DNA of 64,000 bases from Periplaneta americana (lineage: Eukaryota; Arthropoda; Insecta; Blattodea; Blattidae), in NCBI RefSeq assembly GCF_040183065.1, contig NC_091123.1:9101001-9165000 (forward strand). Direction: 5' to 3'. Below are positions 29,301 to 56,693 of this stretch, piece after piece. The notes beneath the pieces are model-generated. The model was given only the letters and a program-made list of their open reading frames with translations, did no database searches and was not told where the DNA came from. The position numbers and the translations under genes were made by a program. Position 1 is the stretch's first letter; every line of letters begins with the position of its first letter.

Positions 29301-29587
29301 GTTAGAATTCCCACACAGAAACTTGTTGCTAGGGAAACAATTCTTCACAACATAAAACTATACTGAAATAGACCCATTACAGTGCACTTATTGTTACTTA
29401 GTTACCATTACAGTATAGTTTTGCGAAGGCTTTGGCATAATGTTGCTCCAAATTTTCAATGCAAAATATATTATATTTGCAATTTTAAAAATATGATCGT
29501 GAAAAAAAGTTGTACAATACACTTTTATGAAGTGCATTACAAAATCCCGGAAACTGAAAAACTAGCTCTGCTCGTTTATAAAAAAAA
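26307..29587. other. no gene seen
   Basis: Three kilobases of AT-rich sequence without supported genes or clear element ends. A short duplicated segment around 'gtaagccagtcac/gtaagccattcac' lies near 26427-26470. A minus-strand AATAAA at 29268-29273 could in principle serve the upstream Popeye gene but is more than 1.2 kb past its stop. Confidence 0.45.
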
Positions 29588-29825
29588 AAACGAGAATACA
29601 TGAGAACAAGGTGAATACAACAGGAAGAGGAAAATGTGACGAGAACAAGGGGAATATAAGTAGAACCAGGGGAATAAAAACAAAGAGAAGACAGGGAGAA
29701 CAAGAGGAATACAAGGATAACAGGGGAATACAATGATAACAAGGGGAATACAAGGAGAATAAAGGGAAGACAAAGAGAAGAAGGGGAAATAAGGAGAAAA
29801 GGGAAATACATGGAGAACAAGGAGA
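29588..29825. repeat. purine-rich ~20-bp minisatellite (first locus)
   Basis: Degenerate tandem units of the type 'aggggaatacaaggagaaca'. The same unit forms a much longer array at 41110-42040 inside the Popeye gene. Long frames on the minus strand here (Leu/Pro/Ser-rich) come purely from the strand asymmetry. Confidence 0.85.
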
Positions 29826-30532
29826 AGAGATTGCATTTTTACGTGGCGGTCAATTCCTAAATTATCCCCTCCATACCTAGTGAGGAGAGGGATGCAATCT
29901 ACTTCAAGAATTTCCTTAAAGCGAGCTTTAAGCACATTTTCATTCCATCTAAATTTGATATTAGAGCCTCAAGCAACCTTACGTTGATTCTAGAGTAGAA
30001 GCTATATTCCACGTACAGCATTCTCCATGAGCTCTTTTTTACAGAACTGTCTTGGTAACAGATCCAAGAGACAGGATTTCCTTCATTTGTTTTTTTTCCA
30101 ACGTTATACATTTCTGAAAGTGTAATGCTGAGCAAAAATCCCAAACATAGATATTTCTCACCGCAAATGTGTACTGCTGATGTATTTAACCTGACATTTA
30201 AGCTTAAAATCGCATAATTTTGTAAGTGCCTTCTTTTCCGTCATTGTAATTTTGCTGAAATCGTTGTACACAGAACGTCAACTTTTTTATGTATAAGAAA
30301 TGACAAAAACATGCAAATCCAAGAATAATCCGAAATTGATATCTTTTTGTATCATCTATTCTGTAAATCGCGTAATAGGAACATAAAAATAGACAGCGAC
30401 CAAGCTTACCGGTACGTCTTGATATGGCGACCAAATAATTATTATTCGTTTCTAGGAATAATATATTTTCCACACTCCTGCCCTTGCCACAACTGCTCAT
30501 TCTCCCTGCCACTCACTTGTACACGTTTTCGT
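29826..30532. other. 3' flank of the Popeye gene
   Basis: Downstream of the last exon on the minus strand. No AATAAA or ATTAAA hexamer was found in this interval on the minus strand (only AATAAT near 30436), so the polyadenylation site is not assigned. Confidence 0.4.
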
Positions 30533-30640
30533 TCAGATGACGCGGGGGAAGGTGAACAGCTGAACGTCGGTCTGCACGGCGTTGCTGCTCGTGTAGGGGA
30601 CGCCGCCCGCGTCGTCGTCGTCCCCATCGTACAGCTGACG
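30533..30640 (-). CDS. possible readthrough extension of the Popeye protein (35 codons)
   Basis: After the TGA the same frame reads RQLYDGDDDDAGGVPYTSSN then AVQTDVQLFTFPRVI and stops at TGA 30533-30535. G/C is present at 14, 24 and 32 of 35 codons at positions 1, 2 and 3, the pattern expected of a selected coding frame. The first stop has a leaky UGA-C context. Either translation reads through, or this copy carries a CGA-to-TGA (CpG) nonsense change. Whether it is translated cannot be told from this window. Confidence 0.5.
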   Translation of the reverse strand, partial: RQLYDGDDDDAGGVPYTSSNAVQTDVQLFTFPRVI

Positions 30641-30764
30641 TCAGACGGGCGTCTCGAACTTGACTTCCCGGCCGCCGGGACGCCGGACGGACCTGGCCAC
30701 AGAGTAGACATTTATAAGGCCAGGATAGCAATCATACTCACCCCAGCCGGCCCCCGGATACGCC
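30641..30764 (-). CDS. Popeye gene, coding exon 6 to first stop
   Basis: This 124-bp segment joins as AG|G GCG and encodes AYPGAGWGEYDCYPGLINVY then SVARSVRRPGGREVKFETPV, ending at TGA (30641-30643). The acceptor is preceded by a pyrimidine-rich tract ending ccctgag. An internal GTGAGT at about 30738-30743 could act as a donor but would leave only a 23-bp exon. The frame carries on openly beyond the TGA (see the extension entry). Confidence 0.78.
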
Positions 30765-33700
30765 CTCAGGGCCAGGAGGCCAATAGTCAAAGCAAAGAGT
30801 TTTTGTGACTATTTCGCTCATGTACCGATGCACCAATAGAGTGTAAGGATCTATTGAGTTCTAACCAATCAAAGCCAACTATCAACTGCAATCTTGTCAC
30901 ACCTGACACGCATTTGTTTAAGCGACACTAGAACTGTATTATTGGTCAAAATGGTAAAATATATACAGTACAGCATATAGTCTATATAGATATTTTTTAC
31001 ATAAATAATTACCTTATAGGCCTACATTTGTTTAACATTCTGTCCTATATTTAGCCACCGTCTTCTACGTTTAAATGTCTGGCGAAAATTTTTTAAAATG
31101 CCACACCCACTAAAAATAGCGTTAACTTAAAACTACGTTTTTTGGTCAATAATAAAGTTCCTAGCGGCTTCCATTTGGTCCGATTTACATGAAACTTTGC
31201 AAGAATACTCAGCACATTGCAATACACAAAGCTGTGCAGGGAATCAGATCTTCACTGAAACTTATTCATGATATGAATTTTTAACTTCTAAAAATTAAAG
31301 AAAATTATCAAGCAAAAATTATAATTTATAAGAAAATTTTTATCTCATGAACCAATTCTAGAATTAAAAAATCCATACGCAGTTTTTTATACCGTGAAGT
31401 GTAAGTCCCTCACAGAAGAGTTTTAAAAGCAAAAACAATTCTGAAACCGTCAGGGATGTTTTGACTTTACGCATAATTTAATATCATTAAAATACATGAA
31501 AATTAATATCTAAGGAACTAATGAATGAAACTTAATGAAATTTGGCACTGTTATTTAAACGTACAGACACAACAAACCCGCCGAATTTGAAAGAAATTAA
31601 TAAAAAACTTTAAAAGTTTCAAAACTCAGTCCCAGTGTCCCTTAATATCTTGTCGCATCTGATGTTCAGATGTTAAATATTTTCATTGTTTCCTTAACAA
31701 TACAGTGGGCCATGATATTGCGTGATGGCCGTGCTAGCAAATTTAAGCATTAAGCATCTTAATTTATAATGGAATCTGTTTCTGTATGTTATAAATTATT
31801 TATTCATATAGGCTATTTAGGAAATGTTATTATTCAAATATCACAAGGTTCCCATCTTGTTGATATTTCACTAAATGAAAACACCTAGTTCAAAATGAAA
31901 TGTTGTAATCTCAAATATTTACTTCAATACCGTATTTACTCACTTTTAAGACCTCGCTCTACTTTAAGAATAAATTATAAATACGAGTATATATAATATG
32001 TACAATACTAGGTTCTAAATTCTGAATTTCTGCTTAAGACTTTTGCACAGTAGTGTAGGGGCATCGTCAATCATAAATGCTCTTGGAAAGATTGCAAGGT
32101 GAAACTCGTTTCTAAAACCATCCTCTCTCCCATTGTTCCGTTTCTTTTCCAATTATCTCTGCACTGACAAAGAACAACATCTCTCTTTGTCTGTTTATCC
32201 TCAAATTACATACCGTACTCTCTGCCTCGTTATTTCTTGCGTTGTCACAACACAGACAGAGAGACAAATTCTCTTTCTTCTTCTACTGATGGAATCAGTT
32301 TTCGCATACCGTACTTTCAAAGTCAGTCATTCAGAGAAAGAGATTAGTATCAGGTGTGAATGTAAAAATGAGCAACAAGCGAGAAAGTTATTCTGTGCAT
32401 TTTAAATTGATTGTGATCGACTTCGCTGAAAAAATGTTTTGGCATTTTAAACTAATTTCTATACTTAGGCCTACTGTTACTTAACTTAAAAAACTTGATT
32501 CCCTTACTGTCTTTTTACGGTGCTCATAAAGACCCCCATACTCTTTTGCATTAAAAAAGAGAGAAAAAAGGAGGTCTAATATGCGAGTAAATATGATATA
32601 TTTACATTTTGTTTTTCAAGTTAGAAGATAGAAATATACTAAAATAATTCCATTAATTAAGTATAACTCATCTGAACATACAATGCCTGTAAAGTGACAA
32701 AGACCATAGCTAAAATTTATTGTTCATGTTGCTGAGATGTTAAAAACTGAATGTAATTTTTTTCAGCTGTCAGGCAAAACAAATTGAAATGTTACAGATT
32801 CGGAAAACGACCAACAAAAAGTAAATTTAAAGGTACACTGGAGTTCAAAGCTACCTGACCCCACTAATAATCGTGTAGACTAAGTGTAGCATCTATAGTT
32901 CTCTGAATAGATGGCGAAGGTAACAGTTAGTGTTGCCAATAGTACATAAATATACCCGCATCATAAAATTAAGAATTTCATCCCCCTCTAATAATAGTAA
33001 AAAAAAAAAAAAAAAAACACTGGATTTAGCGGGAAACCGCTGATACTGTAAATTATGAGAATAATTTATACTTAATCTGCATCAACATTTTCCCAAATAC
33101 TTTTTACCCATTCCAATATTAGGGTCACCTATTGAGAAGTAGCGGAACTATTTCAAAATTTGTCAATTTGTTATGTATTTGGTTTTAACTTTTCCCGTGA
33201 TTAGAAAGTTCGCATACACGATCGGAAAATTGGAGGTCAGTGTACACTGACGTTCAATGATATCTGGCCCTACTAATCGATAGTAATCGATAATTTGTGG
33301 GTAAGTGTGGCTTCTTTAGTTATTACTTCTATGAATAGATGGCGAAGATAATAGTCAGTGTTGCCAATTGTACATACATATACCCGCATTATATAATTAA
33401 ATTTTTCATACCACTCTACTGATTGTAAAACAACACTGGGTTTAGCTGGAAACCGCTGATATTGTCCATTTTGAGAATAATTTATGCTTAATCTACAAAA
33501 TAATTTTCCCTGACACTTTTTTAACCGCCCCAATAATGGTGTCACCTATTGAGAACTAGCGGAACTCTTTCAAAGTTTGTCAATTTTTTTATATCTTTGG
33601 TTCTGTCTTATCAACAGGGCTAGATTCTAGCCATCTCGTGTCTTATTCCTTGGTTGGAAAGTTCGCTTACACGATCATAAAATCGTAAGTCAGATATTTT

Positions 33701-36700
33701 TGAATACCAGTGTACAAGTCAAGTAACATGCTTTTATGTTAAAGGGCATATCTCGGGCATTATCAGAAATATCGAAATAATTCTTTCACCAAGAGAAACA
33801 GAAAAGTGTATTCTAAAAATAAAAGCAAATAAATTGAAAAATGTAATTTTTGACCCATAAAATGCGGACACTGTGTATAGTTCGTTTATGGATGGGGTCT
33901 TTTGGAACACTGTCTATAGTCTATACCCATACTCGTCGGCAGGGACTGACCTGGACCTAGTTTGTGTGTGGGGTGGTGGCGGCGCTATGACCGGAACAAT
34001 GACCGGCACCAGCGCCACTGGCGGCGATGCCGTGAACTGCTGCGCCGCAACAGTGGTGGCTGCGGTAACGACGGCCGCGGCGGCTGTGGTGGTGGCGGTG
34101 ATGACGGCCTGCGGGTACGCCGCGAAGGGCGACGTAGGGGGGAAGTGGTTCGCCACCACAGGCACCCAGCACTGGTGCTGCTGCAGCCGTGAGGGCGACG
34201 TGGACCCTGCGTATAAGGAAATGGGTGAGAGGCACAATCATCCCGAGTTTTCACGTAGAATACGACTTTGTCTGCACCAAGTATGGACACCAGTTCTGGG
34301 ATCCGTGGTGAAAAAAAAAATAACAGACTCACAGGAACGTAGTTGGTGTACTACCTCAGAATCTTCGTGTCAGTAAGTGCCGCATGTTGAAACTCCCGAC
34401 TGAAGGCACGCTGAACTCTTACTATACCGTACTCCGTGTGCTATGGTATTCCAATACATTCCAACTACGTTTCTGTGGGTTTGCTATAATTCTCTAAATG
34501 CTGAAGAATTCACACTGAGTTGAAATGTAAACATCCACACAATTTAACACAATTTTTTCTATCAAACAATGCCACAATGACAAGCGAAAGAGCTGGAAAA
34601 GCATCTTTTTTATGGTGCCACCTAATGTTTTCCGCCAACAATTACAATTAAAAATCCCCTGAAATTTTTGAGCCGTTCTTTCTAATGACATCGTAAGAAT
34701 TTCGCAATACGCATAGTTACAAAATTATAGCAGTTTATAATCAGGGATATTTCTATGGTCACAGTATTAGTGCAGCACCTGTACTGCTCCCAGTTCTCTC
34801 ACACACAGAGAATGAAGTAATAAGCGTGCACTGACTGTCGGAGTAGGTGGCGGAGGTGCGCCGCTGCTGCTGGGTCCGCCATGCCAGGGACCGCACGTGG
34901 CCCCGGGTGCCGGTGTGCACGGCGTCCACGCTCAGGCTGCGGTTCATGGTGCGCCAGTGGTCGGAGGGACGGCCCAGCGCTGCCGACGCCGCGGCCTCGC
35001 TGTTGGCCAGCGCCCCCAGGTGCTCGTTCAGCGAGTACAGCTTGTGTGTGATGTCCTTCCCTGCAACAGCGAGGATCCGAGGATATAGCGCCATTTTCAG
35101 GTTACATGTATCTTTAGCTCGCTCGCTCACTCACTCACTAAATCAGTCATTCAGTCATTCACTCAATAAGTCACTCTCTCATAACTTACACACTCAATAA
35201 GTCACACAGTCGTTCACTCACTAAATAATTCAGTCACTCATTAAGTAACTCATTTAGACAATCTCTCACTAAGTCACTTACTCAGTCACTCTTTAAATCA
35301 TTCAGTCACTCACTCATTAAGTCATTCATTTAGTCATTTACTCACTAAGTCGCTCCGTCACTCTCTCATTCACTCACTAAGTCAATAAGTCAATCACTCT
35401 CAATAAATCACTCACTAAGTTAATCACTCAATCACTGTCAATCACTCAGTTACTCTCTCATTAAATCACTCACTCACTAAGTTATCCATTCACTTAGTCA
35501 CTAAGTCACTCACTTTCATAAAGTCACTCACTCACTAAGTTATCCATTCACTTAGTCACTAAGTCACTCACTTTCATAAAGTCACTCACTCACTAAGTTA
35601 TTCATTCACTCAGTCACGAAGTCACTCACTCAGTCACTCTCTAACACTGTCAGTCACTCTCACTAAGTCACTCACTTTCCTAATGTCACTCACTCACTAA
35701 GTCATTCATTCACTCTCTCACTAACTCAGTCACTCTCATTAAGTGACTGACTCACTAAGTCAATCACTCACTCACTAAGTTATTCATTCACTCTCTCACC
35801 AATTCAGTCACTCTCATTAAGTGACTGACTCACTAAGTCAATCACTCACTCACTAAGTTATTCATTCACTCTCTCACTAACTCAGTCACTCTCATTAAGT
35901 GACTGACTCACTAAGTCAATCACTCACTCACTAAGTTATTCATTCACTCTCTCACTAACTCAGTCACTCTCATTAAGTGACTGACTCACTAAGTCAATCA
36001 CTCACTCACTAAGTTATTCATTCACTCTCTCACTAACTCAGTCACTCTCATTAAGTGACTGACTCACTAAGTCAATCACTCACTCACTAAGTCATTCATT
36101 CACTCTCTCACTAACTCAGTCACTCTCATTAAGTGACTGACTCACTAAGTCAATCACTCACTCATTAAGTTATTCATTCACTCAGTCACTCTCTCACTAA
36201 GTCAATTCACTCAGTCAGTCACCTTCTCACTAAATCACTCTCACTCATTTATTAAGTCAAATTAATTAATTAATTAATTCATTCATTCATTCATCCATTC
36301 ATTCATTCACTCATTCATTCATTCACTCATTCATTCATTCGTTCGTCCATTCGTTTGTCGGTTCATTAATTAATTAATTCATTCATTCATTCATTCGTTC
36401 GTTCGTCCATTTGTTTGTCGGTTCATTAATTAATTAATTAATTCATTCATTCATTCGTTCGTTCGTCCATTCGTTTGTCGGTTCATTAATTAATTCATTC
36501 TAATGATGCTTCGTCATAATATTATATTTTTGCAAAATATACAGTATATTCGCAGATGCTGGAACTGGCCTCCGTTTATGAAACTTTAAAGCGATGAATA
36601 AAATATTTTACTCTCATTCACTAAATCTAAGGAGTTTTGTTGCATAAACAGCGAAATAAGGTAGCCGTATAGCCCTTATTCATGATCTTAGTGTCCCACA

Positions 36701-38408
36701 AACTTATCAGTACAAGCTGGAAATATGTAGGTTGAATTCTCTTGGAATTATCGTGACTACAAGACAGAATACTGTTTGCAGGCAGACAGATAATTGGATA
36801 CGTCGCGTCGTTACCTATGATGTTGGACAGCACCACCTTGAGCAGCGGCCGGTGCCTCAGCACCCGCTCCAGCTTCAGGCGTGACCAGCACATGTACAGG
36901 CACTCTTGTTCAGCCGTTATTGTTACCTGGAACAGTGATCACGCCGTTAATCACTTCCAGCTTCAACAGACGCTTTACAGCCAGGTACTGTTGTCTCAAA
37001 ACAGGACTCAAGATATTCTAAGTGTTTATTAATCTATGTACTACGACAATAATATCAGAACTAATGCTCTCTGAAGGACAGACATTATTTTTTCCAAAAG
37101 CATCAATGACCAATAAAAATTAATACTAAATTAAATTGTCATTCTTAAAACTTTGTTGTTTGAAATAATGTTGAAATGATAACATGTGACTGTTCATCCA
37201 CAAAAGTAATCAGATCAATCTGTCATATGCAATATCTGTTCATTTAAGCTGTAACTATTATTCTTGTAACACTATTGAAGCGAGTGAAAGTGATCATTTT
37301 TCTCACAAAATTATGACGCTATATCCTGTTGATTTTAATATTTATATTGATACCGGTATCAATGCTAAAGTGACTAGTAGTCATTATTTATTTTGTAATG
37401 AAGTTAATCTCTCAGTTACAATAAAATGAACTTAATCTTTCACTTACAATAACTGTTACTTTAGACAGTGACATAAGACCACTGTTGTTTGAAACAAAAT
37501 TAAAGTGATTAACAGTGATTATTTGTAACAAAGTTATTATTTCACGATTTCACGTATAATAACTCTTACTTTAGAAAGCGATATTAAATCATTTTTGTTT
37601 GAAAAAATGTTAAAGAGTTTAGCAGTAACTATTTGTAATGAAATTAATATTTCACTTATAATAATACTTTAGTTAGTGATATTATGTCATTGTTATTTCA
37701 AACAATTTTAAAGTGATTAGTAGTGATTATTTGTAACACAGTTAATCTTTCACTTATAATAGCTGTTACTTTAGGCAGTAATATTATGACCGTTATTGTT
37801 TGAAAATATGTTAAAGTGATTAACGATGAGTATTGTATTGAAGTTAATATTTAACTTAATATAACTGTTACTTTAAATGAAATGAGACCTTTGCCGTTTG
37901 AAACAATATTGAATTGGTTAGCAGTTATTATTTGCAACGAAGTTAATACTTAAGTTATAATAAATGACCTTTAGATTGTAACATAAACAATTGTTGTTTG
38001 AAATTATATTATGTTAAAGTGAATAGCAATCATTACTTGTACCGAAGTTAATATATCACCTATAATAGCTGTTACTTTAGAGAGTGACACAAGACCATTG
38101 TTGTTTACAACAATAAGTGATTAGCAGTGAATATGTATAATTAAGTTAATATCACTCATAATTATTACTTTATTCAGTAATATAATATATTCAGTAAGTT
38201 GTTTGCTACAATGTTAAAGTTATCGAAAGTGGTTATTTTTCCGCAGAAATAGAGTAAAATTCATTTTAAAGGATTATTAAAATCAGTGAATTATATTTTT
38301 CGTCTATAATTACTATTATTTTTTACAGTGATTTTAAGGCAATTGTGTTTGAAATGTTGTTATAGTGGTTACTTTCTCGCCCACAGTAATAAGATTAAAA
38401 ATTTGGCT

Positions 38409-39013: not shown

Positions 39014-40913
39014 TGACCACTAAGTATATGATTCTATAATTATTCTGTACGTGCATGAATATTGATATGTTTACTTCTCCCTAGAAGGATAAAATTATTA
39101 GGTTTTATCTCAATTTTAATCTTCTTAATTTTTTGATGAGGGTAACTATTTGTTAGTCATTCGTGTAATAATAACATTGTAGAAAAACTGATTCAATATT
39201 ATGTGCCAACGAACTGTTAAACGCCAGGAATTGACATGATTTTCTTAAATCATAGCCAGGAAGAGAAAGATGACATAAATAAATGTACCTAACGGGGATA
39301 ATGGGGATTGAAATACCTCGTGCTCTAAAGTCTTTTAATGGAACAGAATTTCTCAAAAGAGTAATGATTAAAATAGCTTAAATAACTTGTCCATAAGAAA
39401 TTTTTATTTTGAAAAACTATTAATTTCTCCACCAAGTATCGAGAGAAGAATTTAGAAAATTCCTGATTATATTCAAGAGGAAGGTTAGAAAAAAGAAGCA
39501 AGAAAAATCGTACATTATTCACTGGCTCTTGATGACAGCAGTGACATTACTGATTGAGCAAAGCTTGAGATTTTCATCCGCGGGATTGATCAAGATGTTA
39601 GTACAGGAACCACCACTGGTTGTAGTTTTCATGCCAAGTACCTTTCCTCCGTCTGATTAGCCTACTTCATAGACTGTCTGTCGCATGTAATCACTGCAGC
39701 TCGAGTTTTGATCACCGCTGATTTAGACATTATGAAGACGCGTGGCGGGCTTAGAAAGGTAGAGCTGCATACTCTCCTGACATGCCACTCTGTCCGTCTT
39801 TACCCCCAGGAAAGACCCGGTACTCAATTTAATGGGAGGCTGAGTGAACCTCGAGGCTGTTGTGGAAGTTTGGCAACGAGAAAATCCGATCTCTACCTGG
39901 AATTGAACCCATGTCCTTCCAGTCCGTAGCCAGTGCTCTACCAATTGAACTATTATTTTAGTTAGTGTTATTAAGCAGTATTAAGAATCCCCACTAAGAG
40001 GTGTACCTGAAAGACGTCGTCGCTGTTGTTCTGGTTCGCCTCCCACTCGGGTGAGTCGATGAACTGGTGAGGCTGGATGTAGTGCAGGTGCATGTCATCG
40101 CACGTCACCCGCAACCTGCCGTGAGACACAGTCCACCGGTGAGCAACCTTACTACAGAACTCAGAAGATGGCAGATCACAACTTATTACAAACACTTCTG
40201 ACATGAATACTTCTTTGTCCAAAATATAACTGATGAGACAATCTAACATTGTTAGCGTAATATGAAGTTCAAGAAGTCTCCACCAGATGCTGCACCAACC
40301 AACCAACATCATGTTTAACTGAAGTTCTGTTTCTGTGAAAACCAAGCAATAAGTCTTAGGTCTATTTTGATTTTGATTCCTACTCTATTTTTTCATTGAT
40401 GTTATAAATATGTCTTCCTCTTCAATTTGGCGTTTTCCCTTGAAAATACAAAATGAAAAGATGCGGTTGGTTTTCGTTTCTTGACTGCTTGTGCCTAATT
40501 TGTAATTTTATAAAGTAGGCCTAATGGATTTGGGAGGTTCTTGATTGATTGCGTAAACTGTTGTTGAATTTTGTGGGAGAATTCTTCTATGAATGCAATA
40601 TTTAGTACGGATTGTAAAAACGTGTTTATTTTTCTATAATCTGCTCCAGTTTTTGCACGTAGAACTAATTTCTGTACGTCACGCAATTTACTTAACAGAG
40701 TTTCATTGTGAGATGACGAGGCTGGATATGCCAAAGTATCCGCGTGGGTAAAAGACCTTTGGGGTGGCCGAAACGTAGATGGGAGGATAATATTAAAATA
40801 GATTTGAGGGAGGTGAGATATGATGATAAGGAATGGATTAATCTTGCTCAGGACAGGGACCGATGGTGGGTTTATGTGAGGGCGGCAATGAATCTTCGGG
40901 GTCTCTGAAAGCC

Positions 40914-40983
<70 letters not shown>

Positions 40984-42901
40984 GGGTGAGTAAGTAAGAA
41001 AGGAAGCACACAAGTAAGCAAGTAATTAAGTATTAAGTTATCTGTGTACAAGGGGTTAAACTAAAAACGTATTAATTGAATTAGTAAGTTCGTATTGTTT
41101 TATCACTATGAAAAGAAGTGCAATACAAGGAGAACAATGGGAACACAAGGAGAACAAAGGAGAATATAAACAGAATAAGGCAACGCAAGACGAACAAGAC
41201 GAATACAAGAAGAAGAAAGGAAACACAAGGAGAACCAGAGGAATGCAAAGCGAATAAAGGAAACAGAACAAGAACAAAGGGAAATACAAAGGGAACACAA
41301 GAAGAACAAGGAGAAGACAAGGAGAATAGTGGGAAATGCAAGAACAACAGAAGGAGAACAAGGGGAACAGGAAGAAAACAAGAGGAATATAGGAGAACAA
41401 AGATGAATGAAAGGGGAACACAAAGAGAAGAAGTGGAACACAAGGAGAACAAGAATACAAGGAGAATAAGGGGAATACAAAGAGAGTGAGGGGAATGCAA
41501 GGAGAACGAGGGAAACATAAAGAGAACGAGGGGGATGAAGAAGAACGAGAGAATACAAGGATAATGAGGGGAACACGAGGATAACACAAGAAGAACTAAG
41601 GGGAATATACAAGGAGATCATGGAGAACACAATAAGAGCAAGAGGAATACAAGGAGAACAAGGGAAATGCAAGGAGAACAAAGGGAACACAATAAAAGTA
41701 AAGGAGAATACAGGGGGAACGCAAAGAGAGCAAGGGGAATAGAAAGAGAACAATGGGAATACAAGGAGAACAATGGGAATACAAGGAGAACAAGGGGAAT
41801 ACAAGGACAGCAAGGGCAATACAAAGAGAACAATGGGAATACAAGGAGAAAGAAACACATGAAGAATAAAGGGAACACAAGGAAATCATGGGGAATATAA
41901 GGAGAATAAATGGAACACAAGAAGAAGAAAGGGAAATACAAGGAGAAGGAGGAGAAAACAAGGAGAACAAAGGAAGCACAAGGAGAACAAAGAAAACACA
42001 AGGAGAACAAGAGGCATAAGAGAGAACACGGGGAAAGGGGTAGGAATTCAGTTTATGTGGCTGTTAGTTCTCAAGTTGGAGATAAAGACACAGTTGAGGT
42101 CAAGATCGGGGCTGACACTCACTTGCCCTTGAGCAGCACGGAGAGGCGCTCGTCGGCAGGCGTGACCTCCTCCACGGCGTACGTCTCGCCCGGCTCCAGG
42201 CGCAGCAGCTGTCCCTCGCGCGTCAGCTCCTTGAAGTGCTTCTTGCTGACGCGCAGCGGCTTGAACAGCTTCAGGTACAGCTCGGTGAGCTCCAGGGACA
42301 GGGGCGGCGGCAGGAAGCGGCAGGCCAGCAGCACCGTGTGGATGGCGTTGAGCAGCACGAGCCCCACGCTCCAGGCGAAGGCGTCGGGCGCGCACACGTG
42401 GATGCCGGCCCACAGCGCCGACAGGAAGAAGCCCACGCACAGGCTGGCGCGCAGCAGCAGCAGGCTCTGCTTGAAGCTGCGCGGCACGATGAAGGCGGCC
42501 GCGAAGAACAGGTTGGCCGTCTGGAACAGGTTGTGCTGCGCCGCCTCCCACTCCACGCAGTGCTCCGGCAGGCCGCTGCCCCCGCCGCCGCCGCCGACGA
42601 CCACGGTGTCGTTGACGAGGCTCAGGTTCGACACCAGCAGGCCCAGCGCCGACGGCGTCGAGTTCCAGAAGTCCTCGGTCCACGTCGTGAAGTTGTCCGC
42701 CGCCGCGACGACGGGCGTCGGGGCGCCCGAGGAGGAGCCCATGTCGGCCGGCGTGCTGGCGGTGCCGGCGGCCCCCGCCTCCCGGTCCACGCCGTCGGCG
42801 TCCGCCGGCAGGAAGACGCTCGAACTGAAGACTCTGCTGGCTGTCACGTCACTGCTACTGCCTACGTCCGTCGCTGCAGTCGGGTTTGGAAGCTTCTCCA
42901 T
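30641..42901 (-). CDS. Popeye domain-containing protein (POPDC/BVES-like), six coding exons
   Basis: The gene joins complement exons 42123-42901, 40007-40115, 36815-36926, 34836-35060, 33951-34206 and 30641-30764, giving 534 residues. Residues 1-120 are Ser/Ala/Gly-rich with NxS/T sites at 70, 80, 92 and 97, consistent with an extracellular N-terminus. Helices lie near 125-141, 146-169 and 174-197. The Popeye domain follows, with FIDSPEW (278-284) and FQVT (295-298), the two conserved motifs of its cAMP-binding fold, and GKDITHKLYSLNE at 334-346. The tail is Gln/Ala/Pro-rich. The family consists of plasma-membrane cAMP effectors of muscle and epithelia. All five junctions are GT-AG with matching phases (2, 0, 1, 1, 2). 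The ATG at 42901 is the first in frame; a GTG lies just before it. No promoter was seen. Confidence 0.93.
30765..31929. other. Popeye intron 5, unassigned part
   Basis: AT-rich intronic sequence without recognised exons or element ends. Confidence 0.5.
31930..32596 (+). mobile_element. pogo/Tigger-like deletion derivative in Popeye intron 5
   Basis: Ends CCGTATTTACTCACTTTTAA and, reversed, TCATATTTACTCGCATATTA form inverted repeats, with TA on both sides (31928-31929, 32597-32598). This fits the pogo/Tigger branch of Tc1/mariner. The interior keeps the start of a transposase (separate entry). At 667 bp the catalytic domain is gone. Confidence 0.88.
32368..32432 (+). pseudogene. pogo/Tigger transposase N-terminal stub (CENP-B-type HTH)
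   Basis: ATG at 32368 opens MSNKRESYSVHFKLIVIDFA-EK, resembling the start of CENP-B-like HTH domains ('K R.SYTV.FKL.VV..AE'). The frame is lost after about 22 residues. This is the only part of the transposase left within the MITE. Confidence 0.75.
32833..33697. repeat. ~410-bp tandem duplication in Popeye intron 5
   Basis: Copy 1 (32833-33241) and copy 2 (33242-33697) share 'gtacactg', 'atagatggcgaag', 'aaaccgctgat', 'cacctattgagaa' and 'tacacgatc' in the same order. Copy 1 carries an A18-20 run near 33000-33018. Copy 2 has about 36 extra bases near 33607-33655. Confidence 0.88.
33951..34206 (-). CDS. Popeye gene, coding exon 5 (Pro/Ala-rich cytoplasmic tail)
   Basis: This 256-bp exon encodes residues 410-493 plus two bases: STSPSRLQQHQCWVPVV, then an Ala/Thr/Val/Pro-rich stretch ending in PPPPHTQTRS. 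Its acceptor has a strong pyrimidine tract (ctctcacccatttccttatacgcag); donor TCCAG|GTCAGT. Of the three open minus-strand frames only this one has strong third-position GC bias and joins exons 4 and 6 in phase. Low-complexity tails vary among family members, so support is from splicing and codon use rather than homology. Confidence 0.78.
34207..34835. other. Popeye intron 4, nothing recognised
   Basis: 629-bp intron with no repeat or exon identified. Confidence 0.55.
34836..35060 (-). CDS. Popeye gene, coding exon 4 (end of Popeye domain, Ser/Arg-rich tail)
   Basis: This 225-bp exon begins by completing Gly334 and reads KDITHKLYSLNEHLGAL, the conserved end of the Popeye domain. It continues through a Ser/Arg-rich segment (MNRSLSVDAV .. 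RTQQQRRTSATYSD) that may be phosphorylated, though this is only inferred from composition. Acceptor cgctgttgcag|GG, donor GACA|GTCAGT. Phase 1 to phase 1. A non-spliced read-through would add residues SQCTLITS.., which look non-coding. Confidence 0.9.
35110..36256. repeat. CACTCACTAAGT minisatellite with 78-bp higher-order units (Popeye intron 3)
   Basis: Composed of short 'cactcactaagt' and 'gtcattcatt' blocks. From 35725 the pattern becomes regular: the marker 'c/ttcagtcactctcatt' occurs at 35725, 35803, 35881, 35959, 36037 and 36115, each exactly 78 bp apart. This is a higher-order repeat of six units. Confidence 0.93.
36257..36500. repeat. 60-bp repeat of TTAA/TTCA tetramers (Popeye intron 3)
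   Basis: Units of about 60 bp, each ending 'cgtttgtcggttcattaatt', begin near 36301, 36361 and 36421. They follow directly on from the CACT array and use a different tetramer. Confidence 0.88.
36815..36926 (-). CDS. Popeye gene, coding exon 3 (VTI..CWSR segment)
   Basis: This 112-bp exon encodes residues 297-333 plus one base: VTITAEQECLYMCWSRLKLE and on to VVLSNII. It follows exon 2 to create FQVTITAE, the second Popeye signature. Acceptor ctgttccag|GTA, donor ATAG|GTAACG. Phase 0 to phase 1. Confidence 0.95.
37100..38400. repeat. degenerate ~100-112-bp satellite (Popeye intron 2)
   Basis: About ten diverged units share 'ctgttactttagacagtg', 'accattgttgtttgaaacaa', 'gtgattagcagtgattattt' and 'gttaat.tttcacttataat' in fixed order. 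The marker 'gttactttag' recurs near 37454, 37565, 37665, 37764, 37866, 37965 and 38071. Confidence 0.88.
38405..39012. repeat. TAA/ATT microsatellites in Popeye intron 2
   Basis: (AAT)n at 38411-38458 and (ATT)n at about 38980-39012, separated by unassigned sequence. Confidence 0.85.
39738..39955 (-). mobile_element. tRNA-derived SINE, third family (Popeye intron 2)
   Basis: On the minus strand the head 'agttcaattggtagagcac' is a clean A-box region and 'gggttcaattcc' a B-box. The body includes complements of 'gaaagacccggtactcaatt' and 'ctgagtgaacctcg', which recur at 62622-62855. The head is tRNA-like, but there is no intact acceptor pairing with a 3' half, so it is not a tRNA gene. Confidence 0.85.
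40007..40115 (-). CDS. Popeye gene, coding exon 2 (FIDSPEW motif)
   Basis: This 109-bp exon encodes residues 260 (shared) to 296, LRVTCDDMHLHYIQPHQFID then SPEWEAN and ending DDVFQ. Acceptor cggcag|G, donor CAG|GTACAC. It enters at phase 2 and leaves at phase 0. The FIDSPEW motif is one of the two most conserved Popeye signatures and belongs to the cyclic-nucleotide pocket in the family. Confidence 0.95.
40116..40747. other. Popeye intron 1, 3' part, nothing recognised
   Basis: No exon-like or repeat sequence identified. The minus frame at 39971-40345 continues open past the exon 2 acceptor but loses homology there. Confidence 0.5.
40748..40983 (+). mobile_element. LINE 3' end with (AAGT)n tail (Popeye intron 1)
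   Basis: The plus strand carries 'gggaggataatattaaaata', 'gatttgagggaggtgagata' and 'gtgagggcggcaatgaatct', the 3' end of the LINE family also at 55737-56640 and 58010-58450. An (AAGT)n tract follows at 40914-40983. Only about the last 170 bp of the element remains. Confidence 0.9.
41110..42040. repeat. purine-rich ~20-bp minisatellite (second locus, Popeye intron 1)
   Basis: Tandem units such as 'tgggaatacaaggagaacaa' run for over 900 bp with strong strand asymmetry. It shares its unit with 29588-29825. The long minus-strand frames (Leu/Phe/Ser/Pro) and plus-strand frames (Lys/Glu/Arg/Asn) are artefacts of its composition. Confidence 0.93.
42123..42901 (-). CDS. Popeye gene, coding exon 1 (N-terminus, membrane helices, start of Popeye domain)
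   Basis: Encodes residues 1-259 plus two bases of codon 260. GC-rich and strongly coding, ending LLKGK at the donor AAGGGCAA|GTGAGT. The ATG lies at 42899-42901. A possible acceptor (gttgcag) at 42924-42930 would place a 22-base 5' UTR ahead of it and an unseen upstream exon beyond. Residues 208-260 (TELYLKLFKPLRVSKKHF..) match the segment after the third helix in vertebrate POPDC proteins. Long plus-strand frames here (384 and 278 codons) are antisense shadows. Confidence 0.92.
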
Positions 42902-42945
42902 CACAGACGGGATGTTGCTCCACCTGCAACGACCAACATATCAAT

Positions 42946-55736: not shown

Positions 55737-56640
55737 TTCTTACTTACTTACATACTGGCTTTTAAGGAACCCGAGGTTCATTGCCGCCCTCACATAAGCC
55801 CGCCATTGGTTCCTATCCTGAGCAAGATTAATCCATTCTCTATCATCATATCCCACCTCCCTCAAATCCATTTTAATATTATCCTCCCATCTACGTCTCG
55901 GCCTCCCCAAAGGTCTTTTTCCCTCCGGCCTCCCAACTAACACTCTATGCATTTCTGGATTCGCCCATACGTGCTACATGCCCTGTCCATCTCAAACGTA
56001 TGGATTTAATGTTCCTAATTATGTCACGTGAAGAATACAATGCGTGTAGTTCTATGTTGTGTAACTTTCTCCATTCTCCTGTAACTTCATCCCTCTTAGC
56101 CCCAAATATTTTCCTAAGCACCTTATTCTCAAACACCCTTAACCTATGTTCCTCTCTCAAAGTGAGAGTCCAAGTTTCACAACCATACAGAACAACCGGT
56201 AATATAACTGTTTTATAAATTCTAACTTTCAGATTTTTTGACAGCAGACTGGATGATAAAAACTTCTCAACCGAATAATAACAGGCATTTCCCATATTTA
56301 TTCTGTGCTTAATTTCCTCCCGAGTATCATTTATATTTGTTACTGTTGCTCCAAGATATTTGAACTTCTCCACCTCTTCAAAAGAGAAATTTCCAATTTT
56401 TATATTTTCATTTCGTACAATATTCTCATCACGAGGCATAATCATATACTTTGTCTTTTCGGGAATTACTTCCAAACCTATCTCTTTACTTGTTTCAAGT
56501 AAAATTCCCATGTTTTCCCTAATCGTTTGTGGATTTTCTCCTAACATATTCACGTCATCCGCATAGACAAGGAGCTGATGTAACCCGGTCAATTCCAAAC
56601 CCTCTCTGTAATCCTGGACTTTCCTAATGGCATACTCTAG
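55737..56640 (-). mobile_element. LINE RT domain to 3' end, 5'-truncated, 2-bp frameshift
   Basis: The minus strand reads YAIRKVQDYREGLELTG, LLVYADDVNMLGE (YADD catalytic motif), EKFKYLGATVTNIND, VLYGCETWTLTLREEHRLRV, RWTGHVARMG, then VLVGRPEGKRPLGRPRRRW and ends in (AAGT)n. A 2-bp loss ('gcatagagtg' where the sister copy has 'acatatagagtg') shifts the frame near 55950. The 5' side is cut by an (ATT)n run at 56643-56693. Enough of the palm and thumb remains to assign this confidently. Confidence 0.93.
55945..56640 (-). pseudogene. reverse transcriptase palm/thumb fragment
   Basis: This about 230-codon frame is open from the (ATT)n boundary to a stop caused by the 2-bp deletion. YADD is intact, so decay is recent compared with other LINE copies here. 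The N-terminal endonuclease and fingers are missing. The continuing C-terminus (55740-55952) is in the next frame. Confidence 0.9.
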
Positions 56641-56642
56641 AG

Positions 56643-56693
<51 letters not shown>

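Follow-up and report, generated by a model that had tools for sequence, protein, structure and literature searches.

Stop-codon readthrough has been charted well in flies and mosquitoes, and the Popeye gene examined here, if our reading of it is true, would be a cockroach case that comes with a clear functional guess. Since the insect genes subject to readthrough number in the hundreds (PMC5100048), such a case would add to a known class. Readthrough has been estimated to be abundant in most of the insects tested, Tribolium and Apis falling below the level called abundant (PMC5100048); a first-pass annotation of the locus had stated that readthrough is frequent in insects. The same annotation described UGA-C as a leaky context, which agrees with the finding that readthrough candidates of flies and mosquitoes tend to have a TGA stop and a C as the next base, features that increase leakage (PMC5100048; PMC8417969). 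The readthrough genes of Drosophila and Anopheles share with Popeye a TGA-C context and a second open reading frame that looks coding in frame 0 alone, and they have a conserved first stop where Popeye has a stop position common to several insect orders; they differ in resting on multi-species alignment scores or ribosome profiling, whereas the Popeye case is known here from the sequence of one genome (PMC5100048, PMC3840789).

A parallel from mammals is AQP4 with its extended form AQP4ex, a membrane protein that normally ends in Ser-Ser-Val, the partner of a PDZ domain, and whose UGA-C stop is read through into a tail of about 28 residues (PMC4132726, PMC6444679). The two systems are nevertheless distinct: the signal is UGA-CUAG in AQP4 and UGA-CGUC in Popeye, the extended AQP4 protein has been detected whereas that of Popeye is predicted, the tails are unrelated, and the AQP4 extension is needed for anchoring, which is the reverse of the unanchoring that we guess for Popeye (PMC4132726, PMC6444679). 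Within the Popeye family, POPDC1 of vertebrates interacts with ZO-1, a PDZ scaffold, and is an example of a Popeye protein working with a PDZ protein (PMC4918794); the FETPV end of the insect protein is a putative PDZ ligand. Fly readthrough tails have been argued to tend towards disorder and to contain many motifs, PDZ sites included (PMC4999894). A literature search yielded no paper on readthrough of Popeye in insects, on stop-codon readthrough in cockroaches or Periplaneta, or on CG32513, and the combination of bves with stop-codon readthrough retrieved one unrelated paper on muscular dystrophy. The words Popeye, bves and CG32513 do not occur in the main texts of PMC5100048 and PMC3840789, the supplements of which may list Drosophila bves.

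The Popeye gene and the age of its stop codon

The POPDC (Popeye/bves) gene of Periplaneta americana lies on the minus strand of the window, that is, of the whole 64-kb stretch of DNA that was analysed. Its assignment in the first-pass annotation is confirmed by a Pfam POPDC1-3 domain in the open reading frame 42119-42940 (E=1.1e-33, 116.7 bits against a gathering score of 28.1) and by the NCBI Periplaneta americana protein P0001, which was found at 100% identity in the protein search and equals six joined exons letter for letter. Exons 1-3 were fixed, and the donor of exon 4, exon 5 and the last acceptor were scanned, a single combination in the scanned ranges giving P0001. All on the minus strand, coding exon 1 (42123-42901) starts at the ATG and leaves through a gtgagt donor in phase 2, exon 2 (40007-40115) exits in phase 0 and exon 3 (36815-36926) in phase 1, these three matching P0001; they are followed by exon 4 (34836-35060), with the donor ACA/GTCAGT, and by exon 5 (33951-34206), which exits in phase 2. 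The last coding exon, given here as far as the second stop (30533-30692, minus strand), reads ...VRRPGGREVKFETPV, TGA, a 35-codon post-stop open reading frame and a second TGA. The acceptor of this exon in P0001 is gccag/GTCC, so that the exon begins at 30692 and not at 30764, from where it had previously been drawn. The last exon has one match in the 3.2 Gb genome, at 100%, and a second copy or a haplotig was rejected on this ground.

An acceptor-like AG stands just before 30764 on the minus strand (tgag/GGC), in the same phase as the acceptor used, and would add 24 residues ahead of the last exon; a donor-like GGG/GTGAGT follows 30742 on the same strand, inside this optional 30764-30693 stretch. 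Another donor-like motif, ACAA/GTGAGT (30516-30511, minus strand), lies 16 bases past the second stop and may belong to a 3'UTR intron. Divergent Popeye domains occur elsewhere, at G000:C7:9273303-9275220 (L003, L004) and at G000:C8:140778154-140778411 (L002), one of these loci being about 130 kb from the gene in the window, on the same contig. Most insects have two POPDC genes (PMC4918794); these paralogues were left out of the comparison as divergent.

P0001 ends in REVKFETPV, directly before a TGA on the minus strand (30643-30641), whose next base is C (TGA CGT CAG CTG). The position of this stop was followed in a homologue search, the query being the joined Popeye exons without exon 5 and with another exon-4 donor; 8,000 candidates were scored, giving 169 matches, 120 of which were listed. 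The comparison is one of proteins, in which the position of the stop can be read and the type of stop codon cannot. Among the matches listed, FETPV is the exact end of 30 of 120 (P0001 among them), and a block of the EV[KTS]F/GVKF type is present near the C-terminus in 100 of 120, in which the stop follows the block within about 20 residues. The pattern missed a further block in P0018; by eye, the 20 of 120 without a block by pattern comprise four crustaceans, P0018 itself and models whose ends look truncated, mis-framed or different in some other way. The FETPV set includes the termites P0002 and P0004, the katydid P0005, the stick insect P0086 and many Hymenoptera, its orders being those that we take from the species names (two rows are nameless). 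The comparison with orthologues suggested in the first-pass annotation, run here on proteins, places the stop at a residue common to several insect orders, and these protein ends indicate that translation of insect Popeye normally stops at the TGA at 30643-30641 and has probably done so since ancient times.

The open frame behind the stop codon

After the TGA-C, the same frame stays open for 35 sense codons (30640-30536, minus strand) up to a second in-frame TGA (30535-30533), just as had been described in the first-pass annotation, and its translation, RQLYDGDDDDAGGVPYTSSNAVQTDVQLFTFPRVI, is the tail peptide given there. G/C occupies 24, 14 and 32 of the 35 codons at positions 1, 2 and 3; the earlier count of 14, 24 and 32 was right for the third position and had the other two swapped. 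In percentages, the post-stop codons carry 69, 40 and 91% G/C at the three positions and the 510 codons upstream 64, 50 and 91%, with a GC3 of 0.914 in the tail against 0.906 upstream. The third-position signature is present in both parts of the tail, in 17 of the first 19 codons and in 15 of the last 16.

The open frame as such has little weight, since 56% of dinucleotide shuffles are open too and even longer open stretches occur in the two remaining sense frames (65 codons in frame +1 and 41 in frame +2). Its composition is another matter. Indeed, a GC3 of at least 32/35 was reached by 3 and 6 of 20,000 dinucleotide shuffles in two runs, at least 32/35 G/C at any codon position by 12 and 14 of 20,000, and the codon-usage score of the tail, computed with the gene's own table, by none of 20,000, figures that are all somewhat optimistic because the region was chosen for its coding look and the codon table was derived from Popeye itself. 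Removal of the (GAC)4 run leaves a GC3 of 28/31, matched in 13 of 20,000 shuffles (33 of 20,000 for any position), and a codon score again matched by none of 20,000. The score is +0.34 per codon in frame 0, against -0.56 and -0.79 in frames +1 and +2, and is negative in all three antisense frames. The 64 kb also contain 46 noncoding, GC-rich segments of the same length (they overlap one another), and none of these reaches the count in any frame. Tetraspanin stops of the same genome served as a further control, a panel of 10 picked by hand from 36 matches, near the profile end and without inner stops; none of the 10 has a positive-scoring open reading frame behind it, but the control is weak because these genes have a lower GC3 (0.33-0.71) than Popeye, and two of its members, L013 and L022, may extend into an intron. 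The coding signature claimed in the first-pass annotation is confirmed and confined to frame 0, its codon score is unmatched by the shuffles, and base composition does not account for it. A TGA followed by C proves little when taken alone: the stop of the tetraspanin at L009 is also TGA-C, yet its second open reading frame scores negative, and UGA makes up only 25% of the readthrough events reported from fly ribosome profiling (PMC3840789).

In other species, a protein search with the tail gave two candidates, none at E<=10. The model P0010 from the locust Schistocerca cancellata continues, in a shifted frame, past the point at which P0009 of the sister species S. gregaria ends in REVKFEL. Provided that P0009 and P0010 share their stop, back-translation of P0010 makes this locust stop either TAA or TGA, with C as the next base, and the next shifted residues, TSA, are those of the cockroach tail; the chance of sharing TSA and the stop context is 0.0015-0.004 in random sequence of 50-75% GC. 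This one locust model suggests that the stop context may be conserved between locust and cockroach. The shifted locust tail as a whole and the cockroach tail are no more alike than shuffles (0.30; 0.47 for the post-stop part). A chimeric query for frame-shifted models returned only P0010 and P0099, both of them sources of parts of the query. P0099, from Vespula germanica, runs past the usual stop into a tail unlike that of the cockroach; 31% of shuffles match as well, and it was rejected as a counterpart. Odd C-termini also occur in other public Popeye models, P0003 (Diploptera punctata) looking, like P0010, out of frame in the late exons.

Probable readthrough and the other explanations

We consider functional readthrough of UGA-C to be probably the best explanation of the post-stop frame, because it fits a stop position common to insect orders, a signature in frame 0 only, the UGA-C context and an exon that matches the genome once and offers exon 5 no in-frame splice route to the whole tail. 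A fraction of ribosomes would read the UGA-C with a near-cognate tRNA and continue for 35 codons to the second UGA, and the product would be a minor isoform with an acidic, presumably flexible tail of 36 residues. That such readthrough occurs, at what rate and to what effect, we infer. The first-pass annotation had likewise favoured readthrough, which stands as the best-supported reading, next to a nonsense allele or an assembly error, in which this animal would have TGA where most others have CGA or another sense codon. The CGA-to-TGA transition is a frequent CpG change, but the termites, katydid and stick insect named above (P0002, P0004, P0005, P0086) and many Hymenoptera end at the same residue; a stop position common to homologues of several orders does not support a recent CGA-to-TGA change, nor a fault of the assembly, and this alternative appears barely credible. 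Ordinary termination, in which the stop is fully used and what follows is GC-rich 3'UTR with a triplet run or the relic of a longer C-terminus, is a more serious competitor that we nonetheless judge unlikely. GC-rich stretches often open by chance, as more than half of the shuffles did, the tail contains a GAC repeat, the protein search yielded no matching tail, the locust tail is not similar, and no stable RNA structure is predicted after the stop (z -0.38 against shuffles), so that no RNA stimulator of readthrough was seen; such a structure is found in 9-10% of readthrough candidates and is thus not required (PMC5100048). This explanation has to contend with a signature that survives removal of the GAC run and that is reached neither in the overlapping GC-rich noncoding windows nor behind the tetraspanin stops, though the tetraspanin genes have a lower GC3, and a relic ought to have decayed, given that the stop position is common to insect orders.

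The tail could also be coding in another transcript that avoids the TGA through splicing or a different promoter, which we hold to be improbable. An AG lies directly before the tail (cgtcag/CTG), to which exon 2, exiting in phase 0, would join in frame, and another AG inside the tail would allow exon 5 to reach the last 16 codons in frame. The join from exon 2 would, however, delete exons 3-5, the AG of cgtcag/CTG has no pyrimidine tract, and entry within the tail leaves the first 19 codons, with their own high GC3, unexplained. Exon 5 exits in phase 2 where cgtcag/CTG needs phase 0, so that their junction gives a wrong frame without the coding signature, and this acceptor just after the TGA was rejected on phase. 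A scan of the last intron (blind to microexons and to distant promoters) gave no convincing cassette exon among 236 candidates of at least 24 bases without a stop. The top score was 3.4, or -2.7 among candidates with exit phase 0, whereas the four known internal exons that were scored reach 20.6-86.5 and the tail reaches 33.7; cassette exons were rejected on score and phase. Recoding of the UGA by A-to-I editing to UGI, read as Trp, or by selenocysteine would give the same coding signature, but we regard it as very improbable. No SECIS family was found among Rfam matches at E<=1 within 29800-31000 (1.2 kb), where the only match was a bacterial sRNA, below threshold and on the opposite strand, and selenocysteine is left without Rfam support in this interval.

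A putative PDZ ligand and other features of the window

If readthrough takes place, it would decide the exposure of an end that resembles a PDZ ligand, as the stop comes directly after it. We take ETPV, in the FETPV end, to fit the class I pattern S/T-x-hydrophobic, and the readthrough end PRVI is not known to fit any of the PDZ classes. The class I pattern is present in 43 of 100 block-carrying homologues among the matches listed, mainly in the FETPV set, Hemiptera, a thrips and mayflies, beetle and moth tails not fitting it. The likeliest effect of readthrough would be a switch, which moves ETPV inside the chain and lets the protein end in PRVI, and we infer such a PDZ switch at the Popeye C-terminus with ETPV as a putative ligand. 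It is conceivable, and put forward here tentatively, that this is an old polyneopteran switch, predating the split between cockroaches and locusts, between a PDZ-anchored and a free, acid-tailed form of a cAMP-binding membrane protein.

The sequence TGACGTCA, presumably the CRE palindrome, occurs at seven places in the window (7 observed against 0.6 expected), with flanks unlike one another, and one copy, at 30636-30643, overlaps the Popeye stop codon itself. Elsewhere in the window, long purine-rich, minisatellite-like stretches at 41056-42063 and 29485-29968 translate as repeats in several frames. Finally, an open frame on the minus strand at 55945-56643 resembles a LINE reverse transcriptase and contains a YADD-like motif that we assume to be that of such an enzyme.
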